From: Corynebacterium casei LMG S-19264
Lineage (GTDB): Bacteria; Actinomycetota; Actinomycetes; Mycobacteriales; Mycobacteriaceae
Length of the DNA stretch: 64,000 bases
Direction: 5' to 3'
Assembly: GCF_000550785.1 (NCBI RefSeq)
Contig: NZ_CP004350.1
Coordinates: 1,406,009-1,470,008, forward strand
How positions within the stretch are numbered: position 1 is the stretch's first letter; each line of letters starts with the position of its first letter. The notes below the pieces were generated by a model that saw only the letters and a program-made list of their open reading frames with translations, ran no database searches and was not told where the DNA came from. The translations under genes were made by a program, and so were the position numbers. Below, piece by piece: positions 2,292 to 54,645 of this stretch.

Positions 2292-2750
2292 CTATTTGTC
2301 CTTTGAAGAATTGGGGTTATCGGTATCTACATGGTCAATAATGTCAGATTCACGGCGCGGGGAGTCGGTGTATTCCAACTGAGGATTGTTACCCGCCGCT
2401 AATGCCTCTGCACGGGCCTGGCGGGCAAGCGCTGGCTTATAGGTGTTGCGCTCACGCGGGTCACGCTTTTGGCCCCGAGCATTGGCAAAGACCACAGCAA
2501 TCCACGGCAGGGGAATGGTGATAGCGGAAATGAACGCGCCCAAAAGCCACGCGTTATAGGCATAGATGACCCACACCGTGAGAAGCAGCGAGGGAACACG
2601 CAGAAACATCAAAATGCCATAGCCGATCTCCCTGCGATGACGGTCTTGCCCAGGTGAAACCTCAGCGTCTGTGATCAACACAGACTCCTTACGTTTCCAC
2701 CAGGGCTTGGCACTGGATTTGCCTTTGCCTTTATTTTGACCGGAACTCAT
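2292..2750 (-). CDS. DUF3099 family small membrane protein
   Basis: A protein of about 152 residues (ATG at 2750; an in-frame TTG at 2771 would add MGLGLKT). The Lys-rich N-terminus is followed by a motif read as LITDAEVSP, typical of DUF3099. Two hydrophobic segments follow (RVPSLLLTVWVIYAYNAW, then a segment of similar length ending in IAVVFANARG), which indicates a small inner-membrane protein with two helices. The hydrophilic C-terminal tail is Asp/Glu rich. Function is unknown for the family. Its stop codon is adjacent to the methyltransferase start, so these genes form a minus-strand operon with dtd. It is divergent from the DUF3039 gene. Confidence 0.8.
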   Translation of the reverse strand: MSSGQNKGKGKSSAKPWWKRKESVLITDAEVSPGQDRHRREIGYGILMFLRVPSLLLTVWVIYAYNAWLLGAFISAITIPLPWIAVVFANARGQKRDPRERNTYKPALARQARAEALAAGNNPQLEYTDSPRRESDIIDHVDTDNPNSSKDK

Positions 2751-2844
2751 GGTTTTCAAGCCTAGACCCAATCACCGCCCAAATTCGATACGGCCCTACC
2801 TGCGGCTTGCCCATTTGATGGGGTTTTGGGGCAAGATAGAGGGT

Positions 2845-3087
2845 GTGAGTACGACGACAAAGACTATTGAGAGACCAGACATCCGTGAGGATGTAAGCAA
2901 CACCGACGATGACACCCCTAAGTTCTTTCACTACGTCAAAAAGAACCAGATTGTGGACTCCGCTGTGTCCGGCAAGATGGTTGTTGCGTTGTGCGGGGAG
3001 ACCTTCCCGGTGACCAAACAAGCCAAGCCGGGTTCGCCGGTCTGCCCTGATTGCGAACGGATTTACAAGGGCCTGCGTCGAAAGTGA
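2845..3087 (+). CDS. DUF3039 family small putative zinc-binding protein
   Basis: An 80-residue protein. I take the GTG at 2845 as start, because the ORF upstream of it runs through the divergent promoter region and has no family similarity. The C-terminal half carries CGE (Val-Ala-Leu-Cys-Gly-Glu) and then CPDCE, a two-half Cys arrangement that could bind zinc. DUF3039 proteins are conserved in Actinobacteria and have no assigned function. The last codons overlap the helicase start by 4 bases (GTGA), so the two proteins are probably made together. A nucleic-acid role is plausible from that coupling but is inference. Confidence 0.85.
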   Translation: MSTTTKTIERPDIREDVSNTDDDTPKFFHYVKKNQIVDSAVSGKMVVALCGETFPVTKQAKPGSPVCPDCERIYKGLRRK

Positions 3088-4871
3088 GTGCACAGACTTC
3101 CAGGAACAAGGGTCAACTACGTGCCTGGCAGCAAGCCGCACTTGATAAGTTTCTTGCCACCAAGCCGAAAGACTTCATGGCGGTGGCAACCCCGGGCGCG
3201 GGTAAGACTACTTTCGCGCTGCGCGTTGCAACCGAGCTTGTAGATTCGCGCACGGTTGAGCGCGTCATCGTGGTTGTGCCGACAGAGCACCTGAAGGTGC
3301 AGTGGTCGGCTGCAGCCGCACGCGTTGGTTTGTCGCTCGATCCGCATTTCACCAACTCGTCTGCCGTTAACCCTTCCTTCGACGGCATCGTGGTCACCTA
3401 TGCGCAGGTGGGCATGCACCCGTTTAAGCACCGTGCGGTGGCATCTGCCCGGCGCACTTTGGTGATCTTGGATGAGATCCACCACGCTGGTGACGCCAAG
3501 AGCTGGGGCGATGGTGTGCGTGAGGCATATGACGATGTGGTGCACCGTTTGTCCTTGACCGGTACGCCTTTTCGTTCCGATGATTCGCAGATCCCGTTCG
3601 TGCGTTATGAAGAAGATGGGGAAGGGCATTTAGTATCGCGCTCTGACCACACCTATGACTACGGGCATGCGCTTGCCGATGGCGTCGTTCGCCCCGTAGT
3701 CTTTCTCGCCTATTCCGGTGAAGCCCGGTGGCGTACCTCCGCGGGTGAAGAGTTTGCTGCACGCCTGGGGGATCCGCTCAATCCTGAACAAACTGCGCGT
3801 GCGTGGAAGACTGCGCTGGACCCGCGCGGCGACTGGATTCCATCGGTGCTGCAGGCCGCGCACACGCGTTTGATGCAGATGCGCCGCAACATGCCTGATG
3901 CTGGTGGATTGGTTATCGCTACTGACACGACGACCGCGCGTGCATACGCGAAGATCCTCAAGGAGCTGTCCTCCACGCCAGTGTCGGTCATTTTGTCCGA
4001 TGAGCCGGGCTCTTCTGACCGCATTCAGGAATTCTCTGATAGCCGCGATGAGTGGATGGTGGCAGTGCGCATGGTGTCTGAGGGAGTTGACGTTCCGCGC
4101 CTTGCCGTGGGTGTCTACGCAACCTCTGCATCGACGCCACTGTTTTTCGCGCAGGCGATTGGCCGTTTCGTACGTTCTCGTATGCCTGGTGAGACCGCAT
4201 CTGTCTTCCTGCCGTCCGTGCCGCGCCTTTTGGGCCTGGCGGAGAACATGGAGAAATCCCGCGACCACGTGCTTGGCAAGCCGGATCGCCCAGACGACGG
4301 CTGGGATGATGATCTACTCGCGCAAGCGAACAAGGAACAGACCGAGCCCGACCTGGAACCGTCCTATGAGTCGATCGGTGCAGACGCTGAGTTCTCGTCA
4401 CTTATCTACGACGGTTCCCAGTTCAACACCGCGGCACTGGATTCTGATGAAGACGCTGATTTCTTGGGCATCCCAGGACTGCTTGATGCGGACCAAGTTA
4501 AGGACTTGCTGCGTAAGAAGCAGGAAGAAGAAATGGATCAGCGCGCCGCTAAAGAACGCGAAGAACGCGCCGCCCAAGCAGCCGAGGAACACCGCCGCAA
4601 GATTCACGGACTGCCGTCCTCGCCTGCTAACCGGCGTCGCGCTTCAGGCAGTGACAGCGCAAGCACCGATGGCGATGCCCCAGTAGCAATTGATGAAGTA
4701 ACAGAGTTGCGCAAAGAGCTCAACACGATTGTCTCCATCACTGCCGGACGCACAGGGCGCCCACACGGCGCCATCCACACTGAAGCACGTAAAGCCTGCG
4801 GCGGGCCGCCCACCGCATTGTGCAACGCCGACCAACTTCGCGAGAGAATCGAATACCTTCGCAAGTGGTAA
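3084..4871 (+). CDS. DEAD/DEAH-box (superfamily 2) helicase
   Basis: A cytosolic ATP-dependent helicase-like protein of 595 residues from the GTG at 3084, which sits in a GTGA overlap with the DUF3039 stop. An upstream ATG at 3051 is possible but lies inside the previous gene. SF2 motifs occur in order: Walker A ATPGAGKTT (35-43), Walker B DEIHH (130-134), motif III SLTGTPF (157-163), and motif VI QAIGRFVRS in the second RecA-like domain. The C-terminal third is charged (E/K/R rich, probably coiled coil) and may contact partners. This resembles the type III restriction/RadD-like branch, but no nuclease domain or methylase partner is present. It is probably a housekeeping DNA or RNA helicase of Actinobacteria. 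Confidence 0.88.
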   Translation: MSAQTSRNKGQLRAWQQAALDKFLATKPKDFMAVATPGAGKTTFALRVATELVDSRTVERVIVVVPTEHLKVQWSAAAARVGLSLDPHFTNSSAVNPSFDGIVVTYAQVGMHPFKHRAVASARRTLVILDEIHHAGDAKSWGDGVREAYDDVVHRLSLTGTPFRSDDSQIPFVRYEEDGEGHLVSRSDHTYDYGHALADGVVRPVVFLAYSGEARWRTSAGEEFAARLGDPLNPEQTARAWKTALDPRGDWIPSVLQAAHTRLMQMRRNMPDAGGLVIATDTTTARAYAKILKELSSTPVSVILSDEPGSSDRIQEFSDSRDEWMVAVRMVSEGVDVPRLAVGVYATSASTPLFFAQAIGRFVRSRMPGETASVFLPSVPRLLGLAENMEKSRDHVLGKPDRPDDGWDDDLLAQANKEQTEPDLEPSYESIGADAEFSSLIYDGSQFNTAALDSDEDADFLGIPGLLDADQVKDLLRKKQEEEMDQRAAKEREERAAQAAEEHRRKIHGLPSSPANRRRASGSDSASTDGDAPVAIDEVTELRKELNTIVSITAGRTGRPHGAIHTEARKACGGPPTALCNADQLRERIEYLRKW

Positions 4872-15175: not shown

Positions 15176-16594
15176 CTAGTCCAAGTAGTCGCGCAGAACC
15201 TGCGAACGCGATGGGTGGCGAAGCTTCGACATCGTCTTCGACTCAATCTGGCGAATACGTTCACGAGTAACACCGTAAACTTGACCGATTTCGTCTAAAG
15301 TACGCGGCATGCCGTCGGTCAGGCCGAAGCGAAGGCGTACAACGCCTGCCTCGCGCTCAGACAGAGTAGTCAACACGTCTTGGAGCTGATCCTGGAGCAG
15401 GGTGAACGAGACTGCATCGACAGCAATGACTGCCTCGGAGTCCTCAATGAAGTCACCCAGCTGGGAATCGCCCTCATCACCAATAGTCTGGTCAAGAGAA
15501 ATTGGCTCACGAGCGTACTGCTGGATCTCCAGCACCTTTTCCTCGGTGATATCCATTTCCTTCGCCAACTCCTGCGGGGTTGGCTCGCGGCCCAGATCCT
15601 GCAACAGCTCACGCTGGATTCGGCCGAGTTTGTTGATGACCTCAACCATGTGGACCGGGATACGAATAGTACGTGCCTGGTCTGCCATAGCGCGGGTAAT
15701 AGCCTGACGGATCCACCACGTAGCGTAGGTAGAGAACTTGTAGCCCTTGGTGTAGTCGAACTTCTCGACTGCTCGGATAAGGCCCAGGTTGCCTTCCTGG
15801 ATCAAATCCAAGAATGCCATGCCGCGGCCGGTGTAGCGCTTAGCCAGCGAAACAACCAGACGAAGGTTTGCTTCCAGCAGGTGGTTCTTAGCCTTGCGGC
15901 CATCACGGGCAATCCAACGAAGGTCGCGCTTTTGCGCAGGCGACAGCTTCGCAGCCGCGTCACCTTCCGCAATCAAGCGCTCCATGTCATCGAGACGGTG
16001 CTGTGCGTACAAGCCCGCCTCAATGCGCTCCGCGAGAGAAACCTCTTGCTCAGCATTCAGCAGCGCAACTTTACCGATCTGCTTCAGATAAGCACGGACG
16101 GAGTCAGCCGAAGCGGTGAGCTCAGCGTCCTTACGCGCCTGACGCAAGGTTGCGGATTCGTCCTCGTCCCAAACGCTAGCGCCAGCGTCCTCCTCGGACT
16201 CTTCCTCATCCTCCTCGGCTTCGAGCTCTTCATCCGGCTCGCCGAATTCGCCCTCATCCATCTCCGCTGCATCAGGATCGAAATCAGTTTCTTTCTGATC
16301 TACGTCTTCCTCGTTTGCGTCGACTTCCTGCTCTTCCAATGCCTCTTCGTCATCGGATTCTGCAGAAGCCTTCTCAGGAGAAGTTGCCTTTGAAGCTGCA
16401 GACTTACGGACAGTCTTTTTGGCCGTAGTCTTGCGAGCGGTTTTCTTAGCGGTCTTTTTGGCCGTTTTCTTCGCCGTCTTCTTAGCGGTTTTCTTGGCCG
16501 TTTTCTTCGCCGTCTTTTTGGCAGGGGTCTTTACTGCAGGAGCTTCCTCTGCACCCTCGCTGAAAGCCTGGTCTGAAGATTCAGTGGCTGCCAC
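15176..16594 (-). CDS. sigA: Primary RNA polymerase sigma factor SigA
   Basis: The essential housekeeping sigma factor, 472 residues. It has an unusual head: residues 26-52 are repeats of the unit KKTA, followed by a long acidic stretch (about 80-145, rich in Glu and Asp). The conserved core begins near residue 160 with [26 protein letters not shown] (region 1.2). Regions 2.1-2.4 follow, with [21 protein letters not shown] and [14 protein letters not shown] (-10 recognition), then regions 3 and 4, ending with the helix-turn-helix [21 protein letters not shown] (-35 recognition). A lysine-repeat head followed by an acidic linker occurs in other actinobacterial SigA/HrdB proteins. It converges on the GNAT gene; ppgK lies upstream in the same direction. 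Confidence 0.97.
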
Positions 16595-32090: not shown

Positions 32091-32117
32091 GAGGAAATAC
32101 TTGGCCTGGGAAGCATT

Positions 32118-32190
32118 GCGGATGTAGCGCAGTTGGTAGCGCATCACCTTGCCAAGGTGAGGGTCGCGAGTTCGAGTCTCGTCATCCGCT
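32118..32190 (+). tRNA. tRNA-Gly (GCC), copy 1
   Basis: A cloverleaf of 73 bases. Acceptor GCGGATG pairs with CATCCGC, the anticodon loop is CTTGCCAAG with anticodon GCC, and the T arm is GCGAGTTCGAGTCTCGT. Discriminator T; CCA is not encoded. Identical to copies 2 and 3. Confidence 0.97.
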
Positions 32191-32220
32191 CAAAGTTTCA
32201 CTACCATGAAACTTTCGTTA

Positions 32221-32292
32221 GCGCGATTAGCTCAGCGGTAGAGCACTACCTCGACACGGTAGGGGTCACTGGTTCAATCCCAGTATCGCGCA
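32221..32292 (+). tRNA. tRNA-Val (GAC), copy 1
   Basis: A cloverleaf of 72 bases. Acceptor GCGCGAT pairs with ATCGCGC, anticodon stem CTACC, anticodon GAC, T loop GGTTCAATCC. Discriminator A. CCA is encoded at 32293-32295, unlike in copy 2. Confidence 0.97.
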
Positions 32293-32314
32293 CCAAGGGT
32301 AAAACCTTGAAAAT

Positions 32315-32387
32315 GCGGATGTAGCGCAGTTGGTAGCGCATCACCTTGCCAAGGTGAGGGTCGCGAGTTCGAGTCTCGTCATCCGCT
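32315..32387 (+). tRNA. tRNA-Gly (GCC), copy 2
   Basis: Same 73-base sequence as copy 1. It is followed directly by CTGG, so CCA is not encoded. Confidence 0.97.
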
Positions 32388-32435
32388 CTGGTTCTTTTAC
32401 GGTTAGCCGTCAAAGTGCCTGAGGCGGTTCGCCAC

Positions 32436-32506
32436 GGTGGAATGGCCGAGTGGTGAGGCAACGGTCTGCAAAACCGTGCACACGGGTTCGATTCCCGTTT
32501 CCACCT
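32436..32506 (+). tRNA. tRNA-Cys (GCA)
   Basis: 71 bases. Acceptor GGTGGAA pairs with TTCCACC, anticodon loop CTGCAAA with anticodon GCA, T arm ACGGGTTCGATTCCCGT. Discriminator T; no encoded CCA. The only tRNA-Cys in the window. Confidence 0.96.
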
Positions 32507-32536
32507 CAATTTGTGCTGTCCTAGGGGCAGGTACAA

Positions 32537-32608
32537 GCGCGATTAGCTCAGCGGTAGAGCACTACCTCGACACGGTAGGGGTCACTGGTTCAATCCCAGT
32601 ATCGCGCA
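32537..32608 (+). tRNA. tRNA-Val (GAC), copy 2
   Basis: Same 72-base sequence as copy 1. The 3' flank is CACGG, so CCA is not encoded. Confidence 0.97.
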
Positions 32609-32660
32609 CACGGATAACCACTTCGGTGGCAAATCCTAGAAACCGGGCCTGGTTTCGTTT

Positions 32661-32733
32661 GCGGATGTAGCGCAGTTGGTAGCGCATCACCTTGCCAAGG
32701 TGAGGGTCGCGAGTTCGAGTCTCGTCATCCGCT
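32661..32733 (+). tRNA. tRNA-Gly (GCC), copy 3
   Basis: Same 73-base sequence as copies 1 and 2, but here CCA is encoded (32734-32736). Last gene of the array, followed by a strong terminator. Confidence 0.97.
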
Positions 32734-32739
32734 CCACTT

Positions 32740-32782
32740 AAAAGGTGGGTCATTTCTAAGAAAGAATGACCCACCTTTTCTC
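32740..32782 (+). terminator. Terminator of the tRNA array
   Basis: AAAAGGTGGGTCATT (32740-32754) pairs perfectly with AATGACCCACCTTTT (32765-32779); the descending arm ends in T4, then CTC. The hairpin lies 6 bases past the last tRNA and 3 bases after its CCA. Confidence 0.85.
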
Positions 32783-32795
32783 GTGCCCAAATGCC

Positions 32796-32820
32796 GGCCT
32801 ATATGCCAAAAGTGGTGTCT
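32796..32820 (+). repeat. Left terminal inverted repeat of the IS
   Basis: Starts GGCCTATATG and contains CAAAAGTGGTGTCT, shared with the right end. It is preceded by the target duplication at 32788-32795. Confidence 0.8.
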
Positions 32821-32843
32821 GGCGGCGTGTCGGGGTGGGGTGT

Positions 32844-34028
32844 TTAGCGGATGGTTCCTTTTCTGATTCCTACTGAGTGGTTGTATTCGGTTGGGATAGC
32901 ATTGTCGTAGAGGGCTGGCCTTCCGGTTTCGTGGTTGGTGTGGTTCTCGGTGTGGGTTAAGACGTGGACTTTGGCGAGTTGGTCTTTTCCCCAGTTCTGC
33001 TGTCTGGCGATCTTGCGTGGGTCGTCAGGCAGTGGTGTTTTGTTGTAGAGCCACCATTCGAGCATTTTTCTTTGCCGTTCCCCGCCGCGCCCGCGGTGGC
33101 AGCGAGCGATGAATTTCAGTTGCGAGTTGATGCCGCCTTCTAGGCTGTTGGTATTTGATGCCCAAGATTCTTTGTCTATGGCTTGCTTTGGTGGGGTGAG
33201 GTAGATAAATAGGTGTCCCTTTTTGTGCAGGTTAGTCAGCGAGTTATAGGCGCTGCGGACTCTGCGGTGGGTGAATTCATAGCGTTTGCCGGTGCGGTTT
33301 ATTTCTGGGGGCAAGGGGGTTTTCTCGTTGAGGAAATCGTGGTGTTTGATTCCATATTTGTGGAGGTCGACGGCCCATTTTCGGGCTTGTTGCACGGTTT
33401 CTCTGCTTGTTAGTTCTAAGGCGAGATTATAGATTTCGCGTCCGGCTTCGGTCCGTGGCCGGGAGGTGACGTAGCGGCGAACAACTCGTTGGGCATGGAT
33501 GAGGCAGCGTTGGATCAAGGTGTTAGGCCAGAGCTTTTTGATGGCGGCTTGAGCACCTTGTCCACCGTCGAGTACCACGCATAAGGGTGCTGCGAGTTTA
33601 GAGAGTAGCTGTGTGTAGGCGTGGGTGGTTTCGTGTTTGCACCAGTGCCAGCACAAGACGTGGTCGGAGGTTGAGGCTATGAGTAGACATCCGGCTGCGG
33701 TGTAGGTGCCGTCGATAAAGATTTGGTCGTGGATGCGGTGTTTGTCAGGGTTGTTGGGTATTTCGATAAGCCACAGTGGCTCGAAGTATCGGTATACGGT
33801 GCGGGTGGATACTTTCATCAGCCTGGCGCATTCGGTGATTGGGTAAATGCCGGTGACGTGGTTGTGGAAGTAGGTGAAGTGGCGCTTGGCAGTGATGTCT
33901 GGTCGGTGGGTTTGTTCGGATATTCCGCAGGTGGTGTTTTTACAGCGCCATCGGGTGCGTGCGTTTCTTTTCCCATTTTTCTTCATTTCCCCAGTGCATA
34001 GTGGGCATCGTGGTCGTATTTCGGGCAT
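32844..34028 (-). CDS. IS1249/IS256-type transposase
   Basis: 394 residues, apparently intact. An N-terminal zinc finger, CPLC and then CKNTTCG (about residues 8-35), is followed by a helix-turn-helix (CARLMKVSTRTVYRYF). The DDE catalytic domain has IFIDGTYTAAG with the first Asp, CVVLDGGQGAQAA with the second Asp, and SNTNSLEGGINSQLKF with the Glu, plus the RCLIHAQRVVRRY segment typical of IS256 relatives. No SD is visible before the ATG at 34028. Instead a terminator-like hairpin ends about 10 bases upstream, which probably keeps expression low. An alternative start further inside is less likely, because the zinc finger is at the extreme N-terminus. Confidence 0.92.
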   Translation of the reverse strand: MPEIRPRCPLCTGEMKKNGKRNARTRWRCKNTTCGISEQTHRPDITAKRHFTYFHNHVTGIYPITECARLMKVSTRTVYRYFEPLWLIEIPNNPDKHRIHDQIFIDGTYTAAGCLLIASTSDHVLCWHWCKHETTHAYTQLLSKLAAPLCVVLDGGQGAQAAIKKLWPNTLIQRCLIHAQRVVRRYVTSRPRTEAGREIYNLALELTSRETVQQARKWAVDLHKYGIKHHDFLNEKTPLPPEINRTGKRYEFTHRRVRSAYNSLTNLHKKGHLFIYLTPPKQAIDKESWASNTNSLEGGINSQLKFIARCHRGRGGERQRKMLEWWLYNKTPLPDDPRKIARQQNWGKDQLAKVHVLTHTENHTNHETGRPALYDNAIPTEYNHSVGIRKGTIR

Positions 34029-34036
34029 GAGAAATA

Positions 34037-34066
34037 CAAAACCGCACCTGTTAGCACAGGTGCGGT
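34037..34066 (-). terminator. Terminator-like hairpin in the transposase leader
   Basis: On the minus strand a 10-bp stem (ACCGCACCTG 34041-34050 with its complement 34057-34066, loop TTAGCA on the plus strand) is followed by TTTTG and, within 13 bases, the transposase ATG. It would stop transcripts entering the element from outside. Confidence 0.6.
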
Positions 34067-34163
34067 AGAAACTTCGGGATTGACCGAAAAACTCGTGTGT
34101 GCAAGCTTTTTGACCTTGCAGAGTATTGATTTAGCTATTGAGAGCTGCGGAGATTGCCGGATC

Positions 34164-34188
34164 TAGACACCACTTTTGTCACATAGCC
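34164..34188 (-). repeat. Right terminal inverted repeat of the IS
   Basis: Reads GGGCTATGTGA and then CAAAAGTGGTGTCT on the minus strand. It is followed on the plus strand by the second copy of the target duplication (34189-34196). Confidence 0.8.
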
Positions 34189-34200
34189 CCAAATGCCTTT

Positions 34201-34225
34201 CGGGTAGCGTCAACGACGCTACCCG
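34201..34225. terminator. Hairpin just past the IS, probably from the original tRNA-copper gap
   Basis: A perfect 11-bp stem, CGGGTAGCGTC (34201-34211) with GACGCTACCCG (34215-34225), and a 3-base loop, followed by CTGTGTTT. Before the IS inserted, it would have lain about 30 bp after the tRNA terminator, so it may be a second, backup terminator. Confidence 0.5.
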
Positions 34226-34379
34226 CTGTGTTTGATATCACCAGTGCGGCACACGAAAGCCGGGAAGAATTACTAAAGGCAATGGTGAGAATAAGTTCGC
34301 GCCGGCACAGTAGTGTGGCGTCAGCTTTCCCAAAGTACACCAAAGGAACTATTCTCAGCGGTGATACGACTAAATAGTT

Positions 34380-34441
34380 AGTACGCATTGAGCAAGCGTA
34401 CTTTGTCTAACACGTGGGCTCACGACAGGAATTTCTTCCTG
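34380..34441 (+). promoter_or_regulatory. copC leader with two small inverted repeats
   Basis: AGTACGC (34380-34386) and GCGTACT (34396-34402) form a 7-bp inverted repeat with 9 bases between, a possible operator. CAGGAA-TTTC-TTCCTG (34426-34441) is a small hairpin directly before the SD (AAGGAG) of copC. No match to a CsoR-type G-tract operator was seen. The binding protein is unknown. Confidence 0.35.
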
Positions 34442-34458
34442 GAGCCAAGGAGTGAAAA

Positions 34459-35061
34459 ATGATTCGATCATCGATCCATCTGGGACGGACCTTAACTGCC
34501 GGTGCACTTGTTGCGGGCCTGGGTTTGTCATCTGCCTTGTTGGCACCCGTTGCGTCGGCGCATGACACCGCCATCGGTGGCAGCATCACTGAAGGCGACG
34601 TACTGGATGAATTCCCAGAAGAGATCATGATTGAGTTCTCTGCAATTCCGCGCGACGGATTCAATAACTTCGCAATCACCGATCAAGCCACCGGCGAAGT
34701 GCTATTTTCTGAAGAACCAGAAATTAACGAGCGCGAGCTGACCATCACTACGCCAGAGGATCAAGACCCAGGCGATGGCGACTACATGTTCGGATTCCAA
34801 ATTACTTCCTCCGATGGGCATGCTACTCGCGGCGGTATCTCTTTCAGCGTTGAATCCGGTGAAGAAACCGCCAGTGCTTCAGAAACCGCCAACGGTGCGG
34901 CAGTTGACTCTGAAGGGGCCGAAACTCCTGCGGAAGCAGCAGAAGAAGCCGAAGGCATGAGCACCTGGATGAAGTGGGCACTTGCCGGAGTTGGTGTGCT
35001 GGCTGTTATCGCAGTCCTAGCGGTGATGCTGGCTAAGCGCCGCGGATACGACGCAGAGTAG
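34459..35061 (+). CDS. copC: CopC domain copper-binding protein, membrane-anchored
   Basis: A 200-residue exported protein. The signal peptide ends VASA, so the mature chain begins with His35 (HDTAIGG), the N-terminal copper ligand of CopC. The CopC beta-barrel (35-135) shows IMIEFSAIPRDGFNN and SSDGHATRGGISF with the second conserved Asp-His site. An Ala/Glu-rich linker leads to one C-terminal helix (WALAGVGVLAVIAVLAVML, about 172-190) and a basic tail, which anchors the domain outside the membrane. It is the first gene of the copper cluster. Its last 35 bases are the left end of the tandem duplication that copies the following gene. Confidence 0.88.
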   Translation: MIRSSIHLGRTLTAGALVAGLGLSSALLAPVASAHDTAIGGSITEGDVLDEFPEEIMIEFSAIPRDGFNNFAITDQATGEVLFSEEPEINERELTITTPEDQDPGDGDYMFGFQITSSDGHATRGGISFSVESGEETASASETANGAAVDSEGAETPAEAAEEAEGMSTWMKWALAGVGVLAVIAVLAVMLAKRRGYDAE

Positions 35062-35824
35062 TTTTCTTTCACAGAAGCTCGATTCATTTTTAACCTATAC
35101 GCCGCCTTAATGAAGGCGGAGAAAGTTTTATCGCAATGTTAAACCACCCTCGTATTTTCGTGTCCATCGTTGCTGCCTCAGCCTTGGCATTGGCAGGTTG
35201 TAGCAATTCTGAGCAGGACTCCACGCAAAATGATTCTGCGCCAGAAACCGCTGCGAATGCCTCTGCTGAATCAGACGATGATGACGCAGACGACAACGAT
35301 GACGCGGACGATGCTGACGATGCATTGGACTTTGAAGATGCAGTAGTCCGCGCGATGGCAGAAGACGCCGATATGACCGCTATCTTCGGCACGCTGGTCA
35401 ATGAGTCCACCGCGGATATTGAGGTTGTTGGATTTACTTCCAGCATCGAGGCGGGTGTAAATGAAATCCACGAGACCGTTGATGGTCAGATGCGTGAGAA
35501 GGAAGAACCCCTAATCATCCCAGCTGGTGAGTCTGTAACACTTGAGCCAGGTGGCGACCACTTCATGCCCATGGACGTTAGCGAGCCAGTCATGGCTGGC
35601 GATGCAATCACGCTGACCGTTGAACTTGCTGATGGCTCCACCGAAGAATTCGATGATATTCCGGTACGCACCATCGGTGCGGGCGATGAGAACTATGGCG
35701 ACCTTGGCCACGAAGGCCACGGTGACCATGACGATGCTGACGATGCCGGTGACCATGATGACCACGACGATCATGATGATCACGAAGGCCACTAGAGTAA
35801 TTCGCTGTGTTGATTAATTCGCTG
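35027..35824 (+). repeat. Tandem duplication, unit 1 (798 bp)
   Basis: Runs from TGCTGG inside the copC 3' end to just before the same TGCTGG at 35825. It carries the copC tail, the gap and a full PCuAC gene, and is near-identical to unit 2. Confidence 0.92.
35136..35795 (+). CDS. PCuAC-type copper chaperone lipoprotein, copy 1
   Basis: 219 residues. The lipoprotein signal peptide ends ALALAGC (lipid on Cys22). A very acidic linker (about 45-65, mostly Asp/Ala/Glu) follows. The PCuAC beta-barrel (about 75-180) has NEIHETVDGQM and then PGGDHFMPM, fitting the H-x-M...H-x-M copper(I) site. The tail is a His/Asp repeat (HDDADDAGDHDDHDD, then HEGH), probably an extra metal-binding arm. PCuAC proteins deliver copper outside the membrane, for example to cytochrome oxidase. 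A hairpin overlapping the SD precedes it. It has an almost identical neighbour created by tandem duplication; the only protein difference is one extra DDH triplet here. Confidence 0.88.
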   Translation: MLNHPRIFVSIVAASALALAGCSNSEQDSTQNDSAPETAANASAESDDDDADDNDDADDADDALDFEDAVVRAMAEDADMTAIFGTLVNESTADIEVVGFTSSIEAGVNEIHETVDGQMREKEEPLIIPAGESVTLEPGGDHFMPMDVSEPVMAGDAITLTVELADGSTEEFDDIPVRTIGAGDENYGDLGHEGHGDHDDADDAGDHDDHDDHDDHEGH

Positions 35825-36613
35825 TGCTGGCTAAGCGCCGCGGATACGACGCAGAGTAGTTTTCTTTCACAGAAGCTCGATTCATTTTTAACCTATACGC
35901 CGCCTTAATGAAGGCGGAGAAAGTTTTATCGCAATGTTAAACCACCCTCGTATTTTCGTGTCCATCGTTGCTGCCTCAGCCTTGGCATTGGCAGGTTGTA
36001 GCAATTCTGAGCAGGACTCCACGCAAAATGATTCTGCGCCAGAAACCGCTGCGAATGCCTCTGCTGAATCAGACGATGATGACGCAGACGACAACGATGA
36101 CGCGGACGATGCTGACGATGCATTGGACTTTGAAGATGCAGTAGTCCGCGCGATGGCAGAAGACGCCGATATGACCGCTATCTTCGGCACGCTGGTCAAT
36201 GAGTCCACCGCGGATATTGAGGTTGTTGGATTTACTTCCAGCATCGAGGCGGGTGTAAATGAAATCCACGAGACCGTTGATGGTCAGATGCGTGAGAAGG
36301 AAGAACCCCTAATCATCCCAGCTGGTGAGTCTGTAACACTTGAGCCAGGTGGCGACCACTTCATGCCCATGGACGTTAGCGAGCCAGTCATGGCTGGCGA
36401 TGCAATCACGCTGACCGTTGAACTTGCTGATGGCTCCACCGAAGAATTCGATGATATTCCGGTACGCACCATCGGTGCGGGCGATGAGAACTATGGCGAC
36501 CTTGGCCACGAAGGCCACGGTGACCATGACGATGCTGACGATGCCGGTGACCACGACGATCATGATGATCACGAAGGCCACTAGAGTAATTCGCTGTGTT
36601 GATTAATTCGCTG
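35825..36613 (+). repeat. Tandem duplication, unit 2 (789 bp)
   Basis: Starts at the TGCTGG junction, repeats the copC tail (now non-coding) and ends before the TGCTGG at 36614. It is 9 bp shorter than unit 1, owing to loss of one GAC/CAT-type triplet set in the His-rich tail. Confidence 0.92.
35934..36584 (+). CDS. PCuAC-type copper chaperone lipoprotein, copy 2
   Basis: 216 residues, identical to copy 1 by eye apart from the loss of three residues in the His/Asp tail. It has the same lipobox (LAGC, Cys22), the same PCuAC site and the same SD-hairpin (35900-35917). The upstream gap contains the copied last 35 bases of copC. Both copies look functional, which would double the dosage of this protein between CopC and the DyP peroxidase. 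Because the copies are near-identical, unequal recombination could collapse or amplify the array. An assembly artefact is unlikely, as the two units differ. Confidence 0.88.
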   Translation: MLNHPRIFVSIVAASALALAGCSNSEQDSTQNDSAPETAANASAESDDDDADDNDDADDADDALDFEDAVVRAMAEDADMTAIFGTLVNESTADIEVVGFTSSIEAGVNEIHETVDGQMREKEEPLIIPAGESVTLEPGGDHFMPMDVSEPVMAGDAITLTVELADGSTEEFDDIPVRTIGAGDENYGDLGHEGHGDHDDADDAGDHDDHDDHEGH

Positions 36614-36652
36614 TGCTGGTTAAGCACAGCGCTGAAGAAGGAGACAGTTTCC

Positions 36653-38017
36653 ATGGTTGAGCTCGACCGACGAGCCTTACTAGTTCGTGGTGGTCTAGCC
36701 AGCGGGCTCGCTGCGACTGGTGCGATTATTGCTGGGTGCAGCGACCCGAATGCTGCCAATTCCGGCGTGACCGCCCCTGGCGCGGGGGCGGGTGCTGCGG
36801 CGGAGCGTACGGGGGCATCGGAAAGCAATGCGGAAGCCCAATCTGTATCCGACCACGTCCTCGATGATGCAATGGTGCCTTTCGATGGTGACCACCAAGC
36901 CGGCATTACCGCTAACTCCCATGCGGTGTTGAACTTGCTTGGCTTTAACCTGAAAGACTCTGTTGGTAAACGTGAATTCACCAACCTGATGCGTTTGTGG
37001 ACCGCTGATGCGCGCGACTTGTGCACGGCTGAAACCCCGGCGGGCTCACTGGAGCCAGAGATGGTGGATACCCCGGCGAACCTGACCATTACGTGTGGAA
37101 TAGGCGAGCGCGTCTTTGACGTCATCGGTGCGCCCGTGCTGCGCCCGGAGTGGCTGCGGGATGTTGAAGCCTTTGACCGGGACAAGCTGTCACCGGAATG
37201 GGGGCAGACAGACATTGTCTTGCAGATCTGCTGCGATGACGCGGTGACCGCAGGCCATGCCATGCGGCACATGATTCGCGCGGGGCAAGACTATGCGCAG
37301 GTGGCCTGGTTGCAGCAAGGCTTTGGCCATGCCTATGCATCCGGCGGCAAAGAAAAGACCATGCGTAACCACTTTGGGCAGCTCGATGGCACAGTCAACC
37401 CCCGCTCCGATGAAGAAATGGACCAGCAGGTCTGGATCGATGAGGGCCCTGAGTGGGCACAAGGTGGAACATCCATGGTGGTGCGCCGCATTCGCATGAA
37501 TCTTGACACCTGGGAGAAGCTGGACCGCAATTCCCGTGAGAACTCCATCGGGCGCAAGCTTGATAACGGTGCGCCCTTGACTGGTGAGGAAGAGTTCGAC
37601 GAACCAGATTTCGATGCCGTGGACAAATATGGGCTTCCTACTATTGACCGCAATTCGCACATCGCGCGTGCCCAAGCGCCAGACGGCAAGCCTCAGGAGC
37701 GCATGCTGCGCCGTGCTTTTAACTACGATATGCGACCGGACTACGCGCCGATCTCAGAAACCGGCTTCGTTAATGACGAGGAAGAGCTCTCGGGTACCGA
37801 CGTGCAGCTATCGAATTCCGGACTGGTCTTTATTTGTTTCCAGAAAGACATGACCAAGGTTTTTGAACCGATGCAAAGGCGCATGGATGAAGTAGATTTG
37901 CTCAATGAGTGGATTACTCACATTGGCTCGGCAGTCTATTTCGTTCCACCGGGAGTCCACGCCGGTGCAACCACCGGTACCTTTTGGACCGAAACTCTAT
38001 TGGACGCGGTAGGATAG
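36653..38017 (+). CDS. Dyp-type heme peroxidase, Tat-exported lipoprotein (EfeB/DtpA-like)
   Basis: 454 residues from ATG 36653, with SD AAGAAGGAG. The N-terminus DRRALLVRGG is a Tat twin-arginine motif followed by a hydrophobic stretch and the lipobox IIAGC (Cys29), so the folded, heme-loaded enzyme is exported and lipid-anchored. The DyP signature GQLDGTVNP carries the catalytic Asp. MVVRRIRM supplies the distal Arg, and NSHIARA the likely proximal His. In Streptomyces lividans a DyP of this type works with a copper chaperone in copper trafficking and GlxA maturation. The copC-PCuAC-DyP order here fits a similar copper role rather than the EfeUOB iron system, as no efeU or efeO is present. 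Confidence 0.87.
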   Translation: MVELDRRALLVRGGLASGLAATGAIIAGCSDPNAANSGVTAPGAGAGAAAERTGASESNAEAQSVSDHVLDDAMVPFDGDHQAGITANSHAVLNLLGFNLKDSVGKREFTNLMRLWTADARDLCTAETPAGSLEPEMVDTPANLTITCGIGERVFDVIGAPVLRPEWLRDVEAFDRDKLSPEWGQTDIVLQICCDDAVTAGHAMRHMIRAGQDYAQVAWLQQGFGHAYASGGKEKTMRNHFGQLDGTVNPRSDEEMDQQVWIDEGPEWAQGGTSMVVRRIRMNLDTWEKLDRNSRENSIGRKLDNGAPLTGEEEFDEPDFDAVDKYGLPTIDRNSHIARAQAPDGKPQERMLRRAFNYDMRPDYAPISETGFVNDEEELSGTDVQLSNSGLVFICFQKDMTKVFEPMQRRMDEVDLLNEWITHIGSAVYFVPPGVHAGATTGTFWTETLLDAVG

Positions 38018-38089
38018 CCGGGTTAGATCTTGTACATCAGGGTGGCGGCCAGGTAAGCCGTTTTTCCCATTAGCGCAAAGGAGCGCAGC

Positions 38090-40165
38090 ATGTCAGAAGC
38101 AATCGCCGCCATTTCGGTCAACTATGAACCGTTTACCTGCCCAGCAGGCACAGCAGTAGGCGCAGCAATGAAGGAATTGGGTCTTCCTAATAAGGGCTCA
38201 GAGGCGGTTGTGGTGGTGCGTGATGCCGAGGGAACATTGAAGGACCTCGCACACGTGCCAGAAGAAGATGCTGTGTTCACCCCAGTCGCAGCCTGCGAAG
38301 ATGATGGCCGCGCTGTTATCCGCCACTCCTGTGCGCACGTGCTGGCACAAGCCGTACAGGCTGAGTTCCCAGGCACCAAGTTGGGCATCGGCCCGGCGAT
38401 TGAGAATGGTTTCTACTACGATTTCCAGACCGCGGAGCCTTTCACGCCTGAGGATCTCAAGACCATTGAAAAGCGCATGAAGAAGATCATCAAGACCGGT
38501 CAGCGCTTTGAGCGTGGTGTCTTCGCTTCCAATGAGGAAGCAGCATCAGCGCTCAAGGACGAGCCATTCAAGTTCGAACTGATTGAGGATAAGGGCAATG
38601 TTGACCCGAATTCCGATGAGGCAACCGAAGTTGGCGCTGGTGAGCTGACCTACTACGACAACGTCAACCCACGCACCAATGAGGTGGAATGGTCTGACTT
38701 GTGCCGTGGCCCGCACCTGCCAACCACCAAGTATGTTCCAGCATTTACCTTGACCCGTTCTTCCGCTGCCTACTGGCGCGGTGACCAAGACAACGCTGGC
38801 CTGCAGCGCATCTACGGCACCGCATGGGAATCCAAGGAATCCCTTGATGCCTACCAGTTGATGATGGAAGAAGCCGAAAAGCGCGACCACCGCCGTCTAG
38901 GGACCGAACTTGACTTGTTCAGCTTCCCGGATGACCTGGGCTCTGGCCTTCCTGTTTTTCACCCCAACGGTGGCATCATTCGCACCGAGATGGAAGACCA
39001 CTCCCGCCGTCGCCACATTGAAGCTGGCTACTCCTTTGTCAACACCCCGCACATCACCAAACAGGACCTCTTTGAGCGTTCCGGTCACTTGGGCTTCTAC
39101 AAGGACGGCATGTTCCCACCAATGCAGGTGGATGCGGAATATGACGAAGAGGGCAATGAGACCAAACCGGGTCAGGAGTACTACCTGAAGCCGATGAACT
39201 GCCCAATGCACAACCTGATCTTTGACACCCGTGGTCGTTCCTACCGTGAACTGCCATTGCGCCTGTTTGAGTTCGGCAATGTCTACCGTTACGAAAAGTC
39301 CGGTGTTATTCACGGTCTGACCCGTGCGCGTGGCTTTACCCAGGACGACGCGCACATCTACTGCACCGAAGACCAGCTCGAAGGTGAGCTGACCTCAGTG
39401 TTGGACTTCATTATTTCCTTGCTGAAGGACTACGGTCTGGATGACTTCTACTTGGAGCTGTCCACCCGTGACCCGAAGAAGTCTGTGGGATCTGATGAGA
39501 TTTGGGAGCGTTCTACGGAGATTTTGGCTCGCGTGGCTGAGAAGTCCGGTCTGGATCTGGTTCCGGACCCAGAAGGCGCTGCTTTCTATGGTCCAAAGAT
39601 TTCCGTTCAGGCGCGTGACGCTATTGGTCGTACCTGGCAGATGTCCACGGTTCAGTTGGACTTCAACATGCCAGAGCGTTTCAACCTGGAGTACACCTCT
39701 TCGGATGGATCGAAGCAGCAGCCAATCATGATTCACCGCGCGCTGTTCGGTTCCATTGAGCGCTTCTTCGGCGTACTGCTTGAGCACTACGCTGGTGCTT
39801 TCCCAGTGTGGCTCGCACCGCACCAGGTAGTTGGTATCCCAGTCTCTGAAGACAACGTGGGACACCTGGAGCAGGTCATCGCTAAGCTGCGCAAGAAGGG
39901 CATCCGCGCTGAGGTGGATACTTCTGATGACCGCATGCAGAAGAAGATCCGCAACCACACCACCGGCAAGGTGCCTTTCATGTTGCTGGCTGGTGCACGT
40001 GACGTGGAAGCAGACGCTGTGTCCTTCCGTTTCTTGGACGGCTCTCAGGCCAATGGCGTGCAGGTTGATGAGGCAGTCGAGCTGATTACCAACTGGATTG
40101 CAGAGCGTAATAACGCGCAGCCAAACCAGGAAAACATTGAGGCGCGACGCACCGAGAACGCCTAA
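38090..40165 (+). CDS. thrS: Threonyl-tRNA synthetase
   Basis: Charges tRNA-Thr in the cytosol. The 691 residues include an N-terminal TGS domain ([15 protein letters not shown]) and an editing domain with the [12 protein letters not shown] and CRGPHLP metal-site motifs. The class II core has motif 1, [16 protein letters not shown] (motif 2 neighbourhood with the zinc Cys), and the [26 protein letters not shown] region. [17 protein letters not shown] (motif 3) and an anticodon-binding C-terminus complete it. It heads the run thrS, HIT, pgsA, patA, pimA, the same order as in mycobacteria. No T-box leader was seen in the 72-bp gap before it. SD AAGGAG is 6 bases from the ATG. Confidence 0.97.
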
Positions 40166-47098: not shown

Positions 47099-47235
47099 TC
47101 CGGCCATCCCTGGTCTTTGGGGATCAAGTTTTTGAGTTTAGTTTTGCCGTTTTCTGCGGGGGAGAAATACTGCGAACTGCAGAAGAACGTATAGTTGATA
47201 CAGAGCTAAATTTTCACGTACGAAAGGTAACTTGA

Positions 47236-47991
47236 ATGTCAGGCCACTCAAAGTGGGCAACTACGAAGCACAAGAAGGCTGCGAATGACGCTAAGCGTGG
47301 CAAAGAATTCGCGAAGCTAGTCAAGAACATCGAAGTTGCAGCGCGTACTGGTGGCGGTGACCCGGCGGCCAACCCAACCCTGGACGATATGATCAAGAAG
47401 GCTAAGAAGGCCTCCGTCCCGAACGATAACATCGAACGCGCGCGCAAGCGCGGCTCCGGCGAAGAAGCTGGCGGTGCTGACTGGGAAAACATCATGTACG
47501 AAGGTTATGGCCCGAACGGTGTTGCAATGCTGATCGAGTGTTTGACCGACAACCGCAACAGAGCAGCAACCGAGGTTCGTACCGCAATGTCCCGTAACGG
47601 TGGCAACCTTGGTGAGTCTGGTTCCGTTTCATACATGTTCACCCGCACCGGCGTTGTACTCGTGCAGAAGGGCGAGCTTGAAGTCGACGACGTCCTCATG
47701 GCAGTACTGGAAGCAGGCGCTGAGGATGTAGCCGACATCGGCGAATTCTACGAAGTTACGTGCCAGCCAACCGACATTTCTGCAGTCAAGGAAGCCTTGG
47801 TCGATGCAGAGATTGAAGTTGAAGATTCTGACCAGGATTTCCGGGCCTCCGTTGAGGTTCCACTGGGCGTTGATGACGCGAAGAAGATTATGCGTTTGAT
47901 CAATGCTTTGGAAGAGTCCGATGACGTGCAGAACGTTTACACGAATATGGATCTCTCCGATGATGTCATCGCAGCATTGGACGCTGACTAA
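47236..47991 (+). CDS. yebC: YebC/PmpR family DNA-binding or translation factor
   Basis: 251 residues with the invariant family start [41 protein letters not shown] and [22 protein letters not shown] follow, then the acidic C-terminal domain. YebC proteins were described as transcription regulators (PmpR), and more recent work links them to relief of ribosome stalling at proline stretches. It sits before ruvC, as in many Actinobacteria; the ruv genes have a separate terminator before them (48037). Confidence 0.95.
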
Positions 47992-53490: not shown

Positions 53491-54645
53491 ATGGCTGCAA
53501 ATAAATCTAAGATTTCACGCATGGACCGCCTCTACCTCGATGAGGGCGGGTTCGACTTCATCGGCCGTGCAAAGACCTGGTACGCCATCACTGCTGGCCT
53601 GCTCATCGTGGCTATCGCTGCAATCGCCATCCGCGGATTCACCCTGTCCCTGGACTTTGAAGGCGGCACCAAGGTCAGCCTGCCGGCTGCCAACCTCGAA
53701 GAACAAGCAGTAGGCGAGGTCTTCGAGGAAGCTACCGGCATTGAACCTGAACAGGTTCAAATCGTTGGTAGTGGCAACTCAGCCACCCTCGAGGTCAATT
53801 CCGAGCGATTGACCGAAGAACAGGCTGACGCCGCGCGTTTGGCCATCTACGAAGAGTTCGAGCCAGTTAATGCGATGGGTGAGTCCACTCCAGACGCAGT
53901 GGGTGTCTCCACCGTTTCTGAGTCCTGGGGTTCCACGATTACCCAGCGCATGGTTATCGCGATGATCGTCTTCCTAGTCATCGCAACCGCGTATGTTGCA
54001 TTCCGTTTGCAGCGCACCATGGCGATTGCGGCAATTCTTGCGCTGATCGCCGATGGTGTCATCATCGCGGGCCTGTACGCACTCTTTGGCCTGGAAGTAT
54101 CCCCAGCAGTAATCATTGGTCTGCTGACCGTTTTGACCTTCTCCATCTATGACTCAGTCATCGTCTTTGACAAGGTCAATGAAAATACGGAGGGGATTAC
54201 TGGGCAAAGAAATCGAACGTACGCCGAGCAAACCAACTTGGCTATTAACCAGACAGTAATGCGTTCGATCTCCACCTCGGTTATTTCCGCACTCCCAATT
54301 GTTGCGTTGTTCATTGTTGCCGTGTGGATGATGGGTATTGGTACCTTGCGTGACTTGGCGCTGATTCAGCTGATCGGTGTGATTGAAGGTATCTTCTCTT
54401 CCATCTTCTTGGCCTCGCCACTGGTTGTCTCCTTGGCTAACCGCAGCAAGAAGATTCAGCAGCACAACAAGGACGTCGCAGAGTACCGTGCGAGCGCGGA
54501 ATTCACGGAGGAGCAAGAAGCTGGCGCCGGCTCCGAATCAGACCACGGCACCAAGCGTCAGGTCGTTTCTCCAACCAAGCAAGTCACCAACCTGGAAGGA
54601 ACCCAAGCAAACCGCACTGGTTCCTCGTGGCGCCCCGGGCGCTAA
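53491..54645 (+). CDS. secF: Protein translocase subunit SecF
   Basis: 384 residues with ATG at 53491, only 2 bases after the secD stop. It has an N-terminal helix, a short extracytoplasmic domain with LDFEGGTKVSLP, and five helices with YDSVIVFDKVNEN. The C-terminal 75 residues form a charged cytosolic tail with Lys and Arg. It forms the SecDF complex with SecD and YajC. A terminator at 54673 closes the operon. Confidence 0.95.
   Translation: MAANKSKISRMDRLYLDEGGFDFIGRAKTWYAITAGLLIVAIAAIAIRGFTLSLDFEGGTKVSLPAANLEEQAVGEVFEEATGIEPEQVQIVGSGNSATLEVNSERLTEEQADAARLAIYEEFEPVNAMGESTPDAVGVSTVSESWGSTITQRMVIAMIVFLVIATAYVAFRLQRTMAIAAILALIADGVIIAGLYALFGLEVSPAVIIGLLTVLTFSIYDSVIVFDKVNENTEGITGQRNRTYAEQTNLAINQTVMRSISTSVISALPIVALFIVAVWMMGIGTLRDLALIQLIGVIEGIFSSIFLASPLVVSLANRSKKIQQHNKDVAEYRASAEFTEEQEAGAGSESDHGTKRQVVSPTKQVTNLEGTQANRTGSSWRPGR

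Follow-up and report, generated by a model that had tools for sequence, protein, structure and literature searches.

The PCuAC-type copper chaperone Cg1883 of Corynebacterium glutamicum is encoded in one operon with the CopC protein Cg1884, and it is described as probably serving the assembly of the CuA site of the cytochrome bc-aa3 supercomplex (PMC9145763). According to a model based on Bradyrhizobium, which is presented in the same source, PCuAC binds one Cu(I) in its folded domain and one Cu(II) in its tail (PMC9145763). Expression of cg1881, cg1883 and cg1884 was reported to be raised under indole, and a copper-starvation response was invoked (PMC7764795). Tandem copies of a copper-chaperone gene have been described for copZ of Haemophilus influenzae; the authors propose survival of copper stress as the reason for the multiplication and stated in 2023 that they were aware of no report in other bacteria (PMC10187127). 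Here, we describe a locus of Corynebacterium casei LMG S-19264, located in a stretch of 64,000 nucleotides (contig NZ_CP004350.1, positions 1,406,009 to 1,470,008 of the forward strand; hereafter the window), in which a copC gene is followed by two neighbouring PCuAC genes and a gene for a Dyp-type peroxidase. The locus is best explained by two events, namely the import of DNA from a sister species and a subsequent tandem duplication at a microhomology, which would raise the dose of the chaperone; we give this account a probability of about 0.82. As judged from the sequence, the import, the duplication, their order and the intactness of the reading frames are well supported.

In a short-junction tandem duplication, a unit is repeated directly, head to tail, and the copies are joined at a microhomology of a few bases. 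The elements of the duplication are as follows, positions being those of the window:

35027 to 35824, plus strand: duplication unit 1, 798 bp
35825 to 36613, plus strand: duplication unit 2, 789 bp, whose first bases repeat the 3' end of copC
34459 to 35061, plus strand: copC, the first gene of the cluster, encoding a CopC-domain protein with a hydrophobic C-terminal segment (PF04234, 49.8 bits, cut-off 23.3)
35136 to 35795, plus strand: PCuAC copper-chaperone lipoprotein, copy 1, 219 amino acids (PF04314, 92.9 bits, cut-off 29.4)
35934 to 36584, plus strand: PCuAC copper-chaperone lipoprotein, copy 2, 216 amino acids (PF04314, 93.0 bits, cut-off 29.4)

In a global alignment, the two units show 0 mismatches over 789 aligned bp and a single 9-bp gap, which corresponds to offsets 723-732 of unit 1 (around 35750-35758) and lies within the part of the PCuAC gene that codes for the Asp/His-rich tail; its exact placement slides within a repeat of the GAYCAYGAY type. 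The Asp/His tail of copy 2 is three residues shorter than that of copy 1. The hexamer TGCTGG is found at 35027, 35825 and 36614. At the upstream parental site, which lies inside copC, it is part of TGCTGGCTAAGC, and at the downstream parental site it is part of TGCTGGTTAAGC; the junction between the units has the upstream form (TGCTGGCTAAGC). The last 35 bases of copC (35027-35061) recur identically at the start of unit 2 (35825-35859). Thus, the units are arranged head to tail, both parental flanks are retained and the join carries a microhomology. A microhomology of at least 6 bp was found for only 345 of 197,572 random breakpoint pairs (0.17%), drawn from this window with a spacing of 600-1000. 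With the flanking bases, the shared stretch extends to TGCTGG(C/T)TAAGC, a 12-bp direct repeat with one mismatch, which is the longest of this kind flanking PCuAC when the region from the start of copC to the start of PCuAC is compared with the 616 bases downstream of PCuAC; the runner-up has 11 bp. The initial annotation, which was made from the sequence alone, had already described near-identical units over their whole length, the three hexamers with their extended flanks and a second unit beginning in a copy of the copC 3' end, and all of these statements hold. It had further stated that both copies retain an open frame, a lipobox and a Shine-Dalgarno sequence; indeed, both reading frames are open, and the copies agree in their lipobox, ALALAGC, and in the GGCGGAG stretch that lies upstream. 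The lipobox was assigned by its consensus.

The duplication is recent, as far as can be told from the sequences, since the units carry no substitutions relative to each other, the three nearest relatives (G178, G150 and G110) possess a single PCuAC gene each and no other pair was detected in the genus; the age proposed in the initial annotation is thereby supported. The genus set comprised 242 Corynebacterium genomes, one per species and this genome included, and was searched with the PF04314 profile. A match is present in 240 of the 242 genomes and at least two rows in eight, yet two neighbouring full PCuAC domains occur in this genome alone; the same two units were looked for in non-sister species of the set and were not found. 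In G003, G136, G160 and G176, the PCuAC copies lie on different contigs. G121 possesses three PCuAC domains, the nearest two of which are 12.4 kb apart (G121:C3:240211-252922), and in G191, the second PF04314 match is distant and under the cut-off. The two rows of G201 are halves of one PCuAC domain in different frames, and none of these seven genomes was retained as a further pair. The split domain of G201 (G201:C1:184754-185037) might represent a broken gene or a sequencing error. Raw protein matches are more numerous, with at least two in 26 of 201 genomes, 20 of which have a single PF04314 match. The count of neighbouring PCuAC pairs is a lower bound, since tandem repeats can collapse in draft assemblies. 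The locus had no match in a plasmid collection, from which records of its own genome may be absent.

The duplication is located at the edge of a stretch that was evidently replaced by DNA of a sister species. This tract and its parts are:

32111 to 32795 and 34189 to 35277: imported tract, 98.9% identical to G178, with its right end copied at 35825-36075
32118 to 32736, plus strand: cluster of six tRNA genes (Gly, Val, Gly, Cys, Val, Gly), predicted by ARAGORN, at the tract's left end
34189 to 35026, plus strand: imported part between an insertion sequence and unit 1, consisting of the copC upstream region and most of copC
35825 to 36075, plus strand: copy of the right tract end inside unit 2 (counterpart in unit 1: 35027-35277)

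Compared with G178, the tract shows 19 differences at 1,765 sites, or 18 at 1,139 sites without the tRNA cluster; these site counts leave out the insertion sequence and unit 1, and the ends of the tract were set by eye. In the same alignment, identity drops to 63% just left and 75% just right of the tract, and the BLAST pieces between the window and G178 are mostly 69-79% identical. Synonymous divergence (pS) from G178 follows the same pattern: it is 0.013 for copC and 0.000 for PCuAC codons 1-48, as opposed to 0.715 for PCuAC codons 60-190 and 0.581 for thrS. The identity of the tract therefore lies far above that of its flanks, synonymous sites included, as is expected for an interspecies import. 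When the segment 34188-35300 was used as a query against the genus set, G178 matched with 98%, G150 with 96% and the distant G110 with 72% over most of its length, and the other matching genomes yielded short pieces only. Within the tract, 44 of 1,765 sites (2.5%) distinguish G178 from G150, compared with 4.5% over the region, and G110 has 370 differences both to this genome and to G178. Divergence between G178 and G150 in the tract is thus ordinary for their lineage, which makes this genome the likely recipient.

The left crossover is probably situated in the tRNA cluster, as suggested by the single substitution relative to G178 between 32111 and 32795 and the many substitutions left of 32111; it can only be placed roughly, since the tRNA genes are highly conserved, in G110 too. 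Further right, 13 substitutions separate the stretch 34197-35026 from G178. The copy of the right tract end at 35825-36075 shows five substitutions, which are followed by an 18-bp gap and dense differences. The transition from donor to native sequence is thus found in or just past the acidic linker of PCuAC, around codon 48, and the resulting gene is a hybrid, which combines the leader, the signal peptide and the acidic linker of the donor with the native copper-binding domain.

Both units share the same donor-native junction, and the copC remnant and leader that open unit 2 are of the donor type (two differences at 109 sites, none in 35825-35894). The simplest reading of these sequences is that the import came first and the duplication second, since both units carry the junction. 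The donor-type remnant in unit 2 likewise suggests that the import preceded the duplication, although a remnant is under no obligation to keep its sequence.

Right of the tract, identity to G178 again reaches 97-100% in two short patches, one in the Dyp gene (37673-37912) and one before thrS (38033-38092). With regard to these patches, the import may be a longer, discontinuous mosaic. Pieces of 200 bp with 90-94.5% identity to G178 are also found at 2701-3200, 15601-15800, 47201-47500 and 54101-54300, which might be due to further exchange or to gene conservation. The identity level of the imported tract is matched only by the patches within and behind the Dyp gene.

The tract is interrupted by an insertion sequence, which is situated between the tRNA cluster and copC and has no contact with the duplication:

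32796 to 34188, minus strand: insertion sequence of the IS1249 family, transposase at 32844-34028 (NCBIfam NF033544, 452.3 bits, cut-off 300)

The element is flanked by a 9-bp target duplication, CCAAATGCC, at 32787-32795 and 34189-34197, which is present once at this place in G178. Six copies with at least 98% identity are found in the genome, this one included.

The downstream end of the duplication coincides with a predicted hairpin:

36609 to 36631, plus strand: hairpin between PCuAC copy 2 and the Dyp gene, CGCTGTGCT-GGTTA-AGCACAGCG, with a 9-bp stem

The downstream breakpoint, which lies within TGCTGG (36614-36619), falls into the left arm and loop of this structure. The hairpin sequence folds better than most shuffled sequences (-23.2 kcal/mol; z-score -3.2; 1 of 200 shuffles as good). 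Other sequence takes the place of the right arm at the unit junction that follows copy 1, and folding there is weaker (z-score -1.0; 30 of 200 shuffles as good); a complete loss of the hairpin after copy 1 was considered and rejected, as a weaker, imperfect fold is found there (-17.1 vs -23.2 kcal/mol). The hairpin is not conserved throughout the genus. In the gap between PCuAC and the Dyp gene, a perfect stem of at least 6 bp is present in 6 of the 30 best-scoring loci, namely in the four genomes of the nearest clade, whose stems differ, and in two others, and the hairpin is therefore limited to the clade at most. The gap is shorter than 20 bases or negative in 11 of the 30 loci, which leaves hardly any room for such a structure. 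Shuffling in this comparison kept base composition only and was counted only where a stem was found; 8 of 600 shuffled sequences reached the stem length. The three nearest relatives possess hairpins of different sequence at the same position.

Taken together, the locus most likely arose by the following steps. Homologous recombination would have swapped around 1.77 kb (without the insertion sequence and the second unit), from the tRNA cluster to the 5' end of PCuAC, for G178-like DNA, thereby creating the hybrid PCuAC gene. A unit of around 0.79 kb, reaching from the imported 3' end of copC to the native hairpin, would subsequently have been doubled in tandem. This doubling, joined at the 6-bp microhomology (12 bp with one mismatch), most likely took place during replication, by slippage or a template switch close to the hairpin. 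The likeliest route is that replication stalled or switched template at the hairpin, whose role is presumed, and that re-pairing followed at TGCTGG(C/T)TAAGC. The tails of the two proteins differ by one 9-bp Asp/His repeat, which was either gained or lost. The initial annotation had proposed slippage or illegitimate recombination at a microhomology, and its view of a join at a short microhomology is supported, whereas slippage as such is weakened by repeats of 8-9 bp that were left unused. Its picture of a recent microhomology duplication is likewise retained, but it had missed the import of copC and the 5' part of PCuAC, the order in which import and duplication took place and the hairpin at the downstream break.

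The copC product scores 31.3 bits against the narrower NCBIfam CopC model, which is under the cut-off of 95. Both PCuAC copies possess an N-terminal signal-like segment and an Asp/His-rich tail; members of the family are exported and often have an unstructured tail rich in His and Met. The ligand motif of PCuAC is given as H(M)X10MX21HXM (PMC9145763). In both copies, the pattern is H-x6-M-x22-H-x-M; the order of the His and Met ligands (H..M..HxM) is thus the same, but the exact X10 and X21 spacing is not found, and the first spacing (x6) equals the shorter spacing of SCO3965, 3zja. All 16 aligned PCuAC sequences of the genus retain the H, the first M and the H-x-M; this alignment did not include 14 further loci, which lie on the opposite strand. 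Loss of a copper ligand was considered for a lysine (MREKEE) at a position at which the three nearest relatives have methionine (MREMEE, MQEMEE and MQEMED), and was rejected, since all 16 aligned sequences have either K or M there and the H, M and HxM residues are intact. The last gene of the cluster is:

36653 to 38017, plus strand: Dyp-type peroxidase, EfeB-like (PF20628, PF04261; TIGR01413 above its cut-off)

With 306.9 bits, its product stays below the cut-off of 428 of the EfeB-type model TIGR01412. The start codon ATG at 36653 is common to the relatives, while the listed open reading frame is open from a GTG at 36596. A Dyp-type match is found downstream of PCuAC in all 30 best-scoring loci of the genus, including that of this genome. 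One Caa3_CtaG-domain protein is encoded in this genome, a family which is also present in the C. glutamicum control genome.

By homology, PCuAC probably supplies the CuA site of the cytochrome bc1-aa3 oxidase with copper, and the genes of the copC-PCuAC-PCuAC-Dyp cluster are presumably co-transcribed. PCuAC copy 2, if transcribed, should be translated like copy 1, since the unit holds the leader and the ribosome-binding stretch. With an extra copy, more copper could presumably be delivered, and a higher chaperone dose would be expected to matter most under copper scarcity. The initial annotation had likewise proposed that gene dosage may have adapted to copper, in shortage or in excess.

Several observations weigh against this account of the locus. 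The evidence for two units comes from one assembly of one strain of the species, and the pair may have no selective effect or have arisen by chance in this strain. Longer exact repeats flanking PCuAC were left unused, among them one of 9 bp and several of 8 bp, which include TGTGCTGG at 34995/36612. The upstream break in copC folds little better than shuffled sequences (z-score -1.3; 23 of 200 shuffles as good), so that a special structure is found on one side only, and the hairpin at the other break may be a coincidence. Outside the tract, 200-bp pieces reach 93-94.5% identity to G178 (starts at 2801, 2901 and 47301), and a high identity is therefore not unique to the import. Lastly, the copper pathway may differ from that of C. 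glutamicum, since this genome has a SCO1-SenC match, albeit a weak one just over the cut-off (24.1 vs 22.8 bits).

Other histories of the locus have to be weighed against these two events. The reliance on a single assembly, together with the general difficulty of resolving tandem repeats of this size with short reads, raises the possibility that two contig ends, each with this unit, were wrongly placed head to tail, with only one real copy in the cell. The repeat number of Haemophilus copZ was indeed wrong in the reference record; that error, however, was an under-count, with two copies annotated and six found, and not a false duplication (PMC10187127). The 9 bp by which the copies differ and a junction placed at a 6-bp microhomology also argue against an assembly artefact, which we regard as unlikely. 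Import and duplication might also have been produced together, by donor DNA that recombined homologously on the left and was joined illegitimately on the right. The left breakpoint of the duplication lies within imported DNA, and TGCTGGCTAAGC is identical in G178 and G150, in agreement with such a combined event, but a further conversion step would be needed to place the same donor-native linker junction in both units, and this makes a single event improbable. Least probable of all is an old duplication homogenised by gene conversion. Tandem copies can convert each other, and identity alone gives no date; nevertheless, the three nearest relatives have a single copy, the genus set contains no other neighbouring pair, and the identity of the units reaches into their non-coding ends, including the copC remnant.

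Two further proposals accept the import followed by duplication and concern the reason for the second copy. Tandem duplications are generally frequent in bacteria and easily lost, and no other species of the genus set possesses the pair, so the duplication could be real but a selectively neutral, transient copy-number variant with no link to copper. The intact frames, signals and ribosome-binding stretch seem to speak for use of both copies, yet a young neutral copy would look alike, and these features do not discriminate. On the question of benefit alone, the odds between a neutral and an adaptive variant are about even. Alternatively, the doubling might have been a compensation: the foreign copC, PCuAC leader and signal peptide could have reduced the output of PCuAC or the fit of the operon, and amplification could have restored the dose. 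Although this is an outside possibility, the locus would then document a naturally occurring repair of an interspecies gene replacement by gene amplification, in which both steps can still be read.

Import followed by duplication remains the preferred account, and the locus provides a clean example of two steps of genome change that are stacked in a readable order at a metal-homeostasis cluster. If the second copy matters, the chaperone dose would be an adjustable part of the respiratory copper supply; if it is irrelevant, the pair would be a routine copy-number variant. Apart from its start in imported DNA, this is an otherwise ordinary small gene duplication. Literature listings and the openings of abstracts, which make for weak negatives, contained no report of tandem PCuAC genes among the matches listed and no publication on the copper genes of C. 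casei.

CopZ and PCuAC belong to different protein families. Nevertheless, the tandem copZ genes of H. influenzae are a published precedent for tandem copper-chaperone copies, and both loci contain a small copper-chaperone gene in nearly identical tandem copies, within a copper operon or cluster (PMC10187127). CopZ is described as the partner of a copper-efflux ATPase, and its gene is present in three to seven copies that vary among isolates (PMC10187127), whereas the protein described here is an exported PCuAC, encoded by two copies in one genome and thought to act in oxidase metallation. Paracoccus denitrificans also has two PCuAC proteins per cell, PCu1 and PCu2, which are listed as distinct paralogs (PMC9145763), while those of C. 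casei are practically identical neighbours. With respect to gene order, the closest counterpart is the C. glutamicum series cg1884 (copC), cg1883 (PCuAC type) and cg1881 (predicted iron-dependent peroxidase), in which the same CopC, PCuAC and Dyp- or iron-dependent-type peroxidase genes carry neighbouring gene numbers. One PCuAC protein is listed for C. glutamicum (PMC9145763), in contrast to the two tandem genes, the imported copC and the hybrid PCuAC of C. casei. Compared with other short-junction tandem duplications, what sets the one described here apart is that one break falls into a hairpin, while the other lies in DNA that was imported recently.

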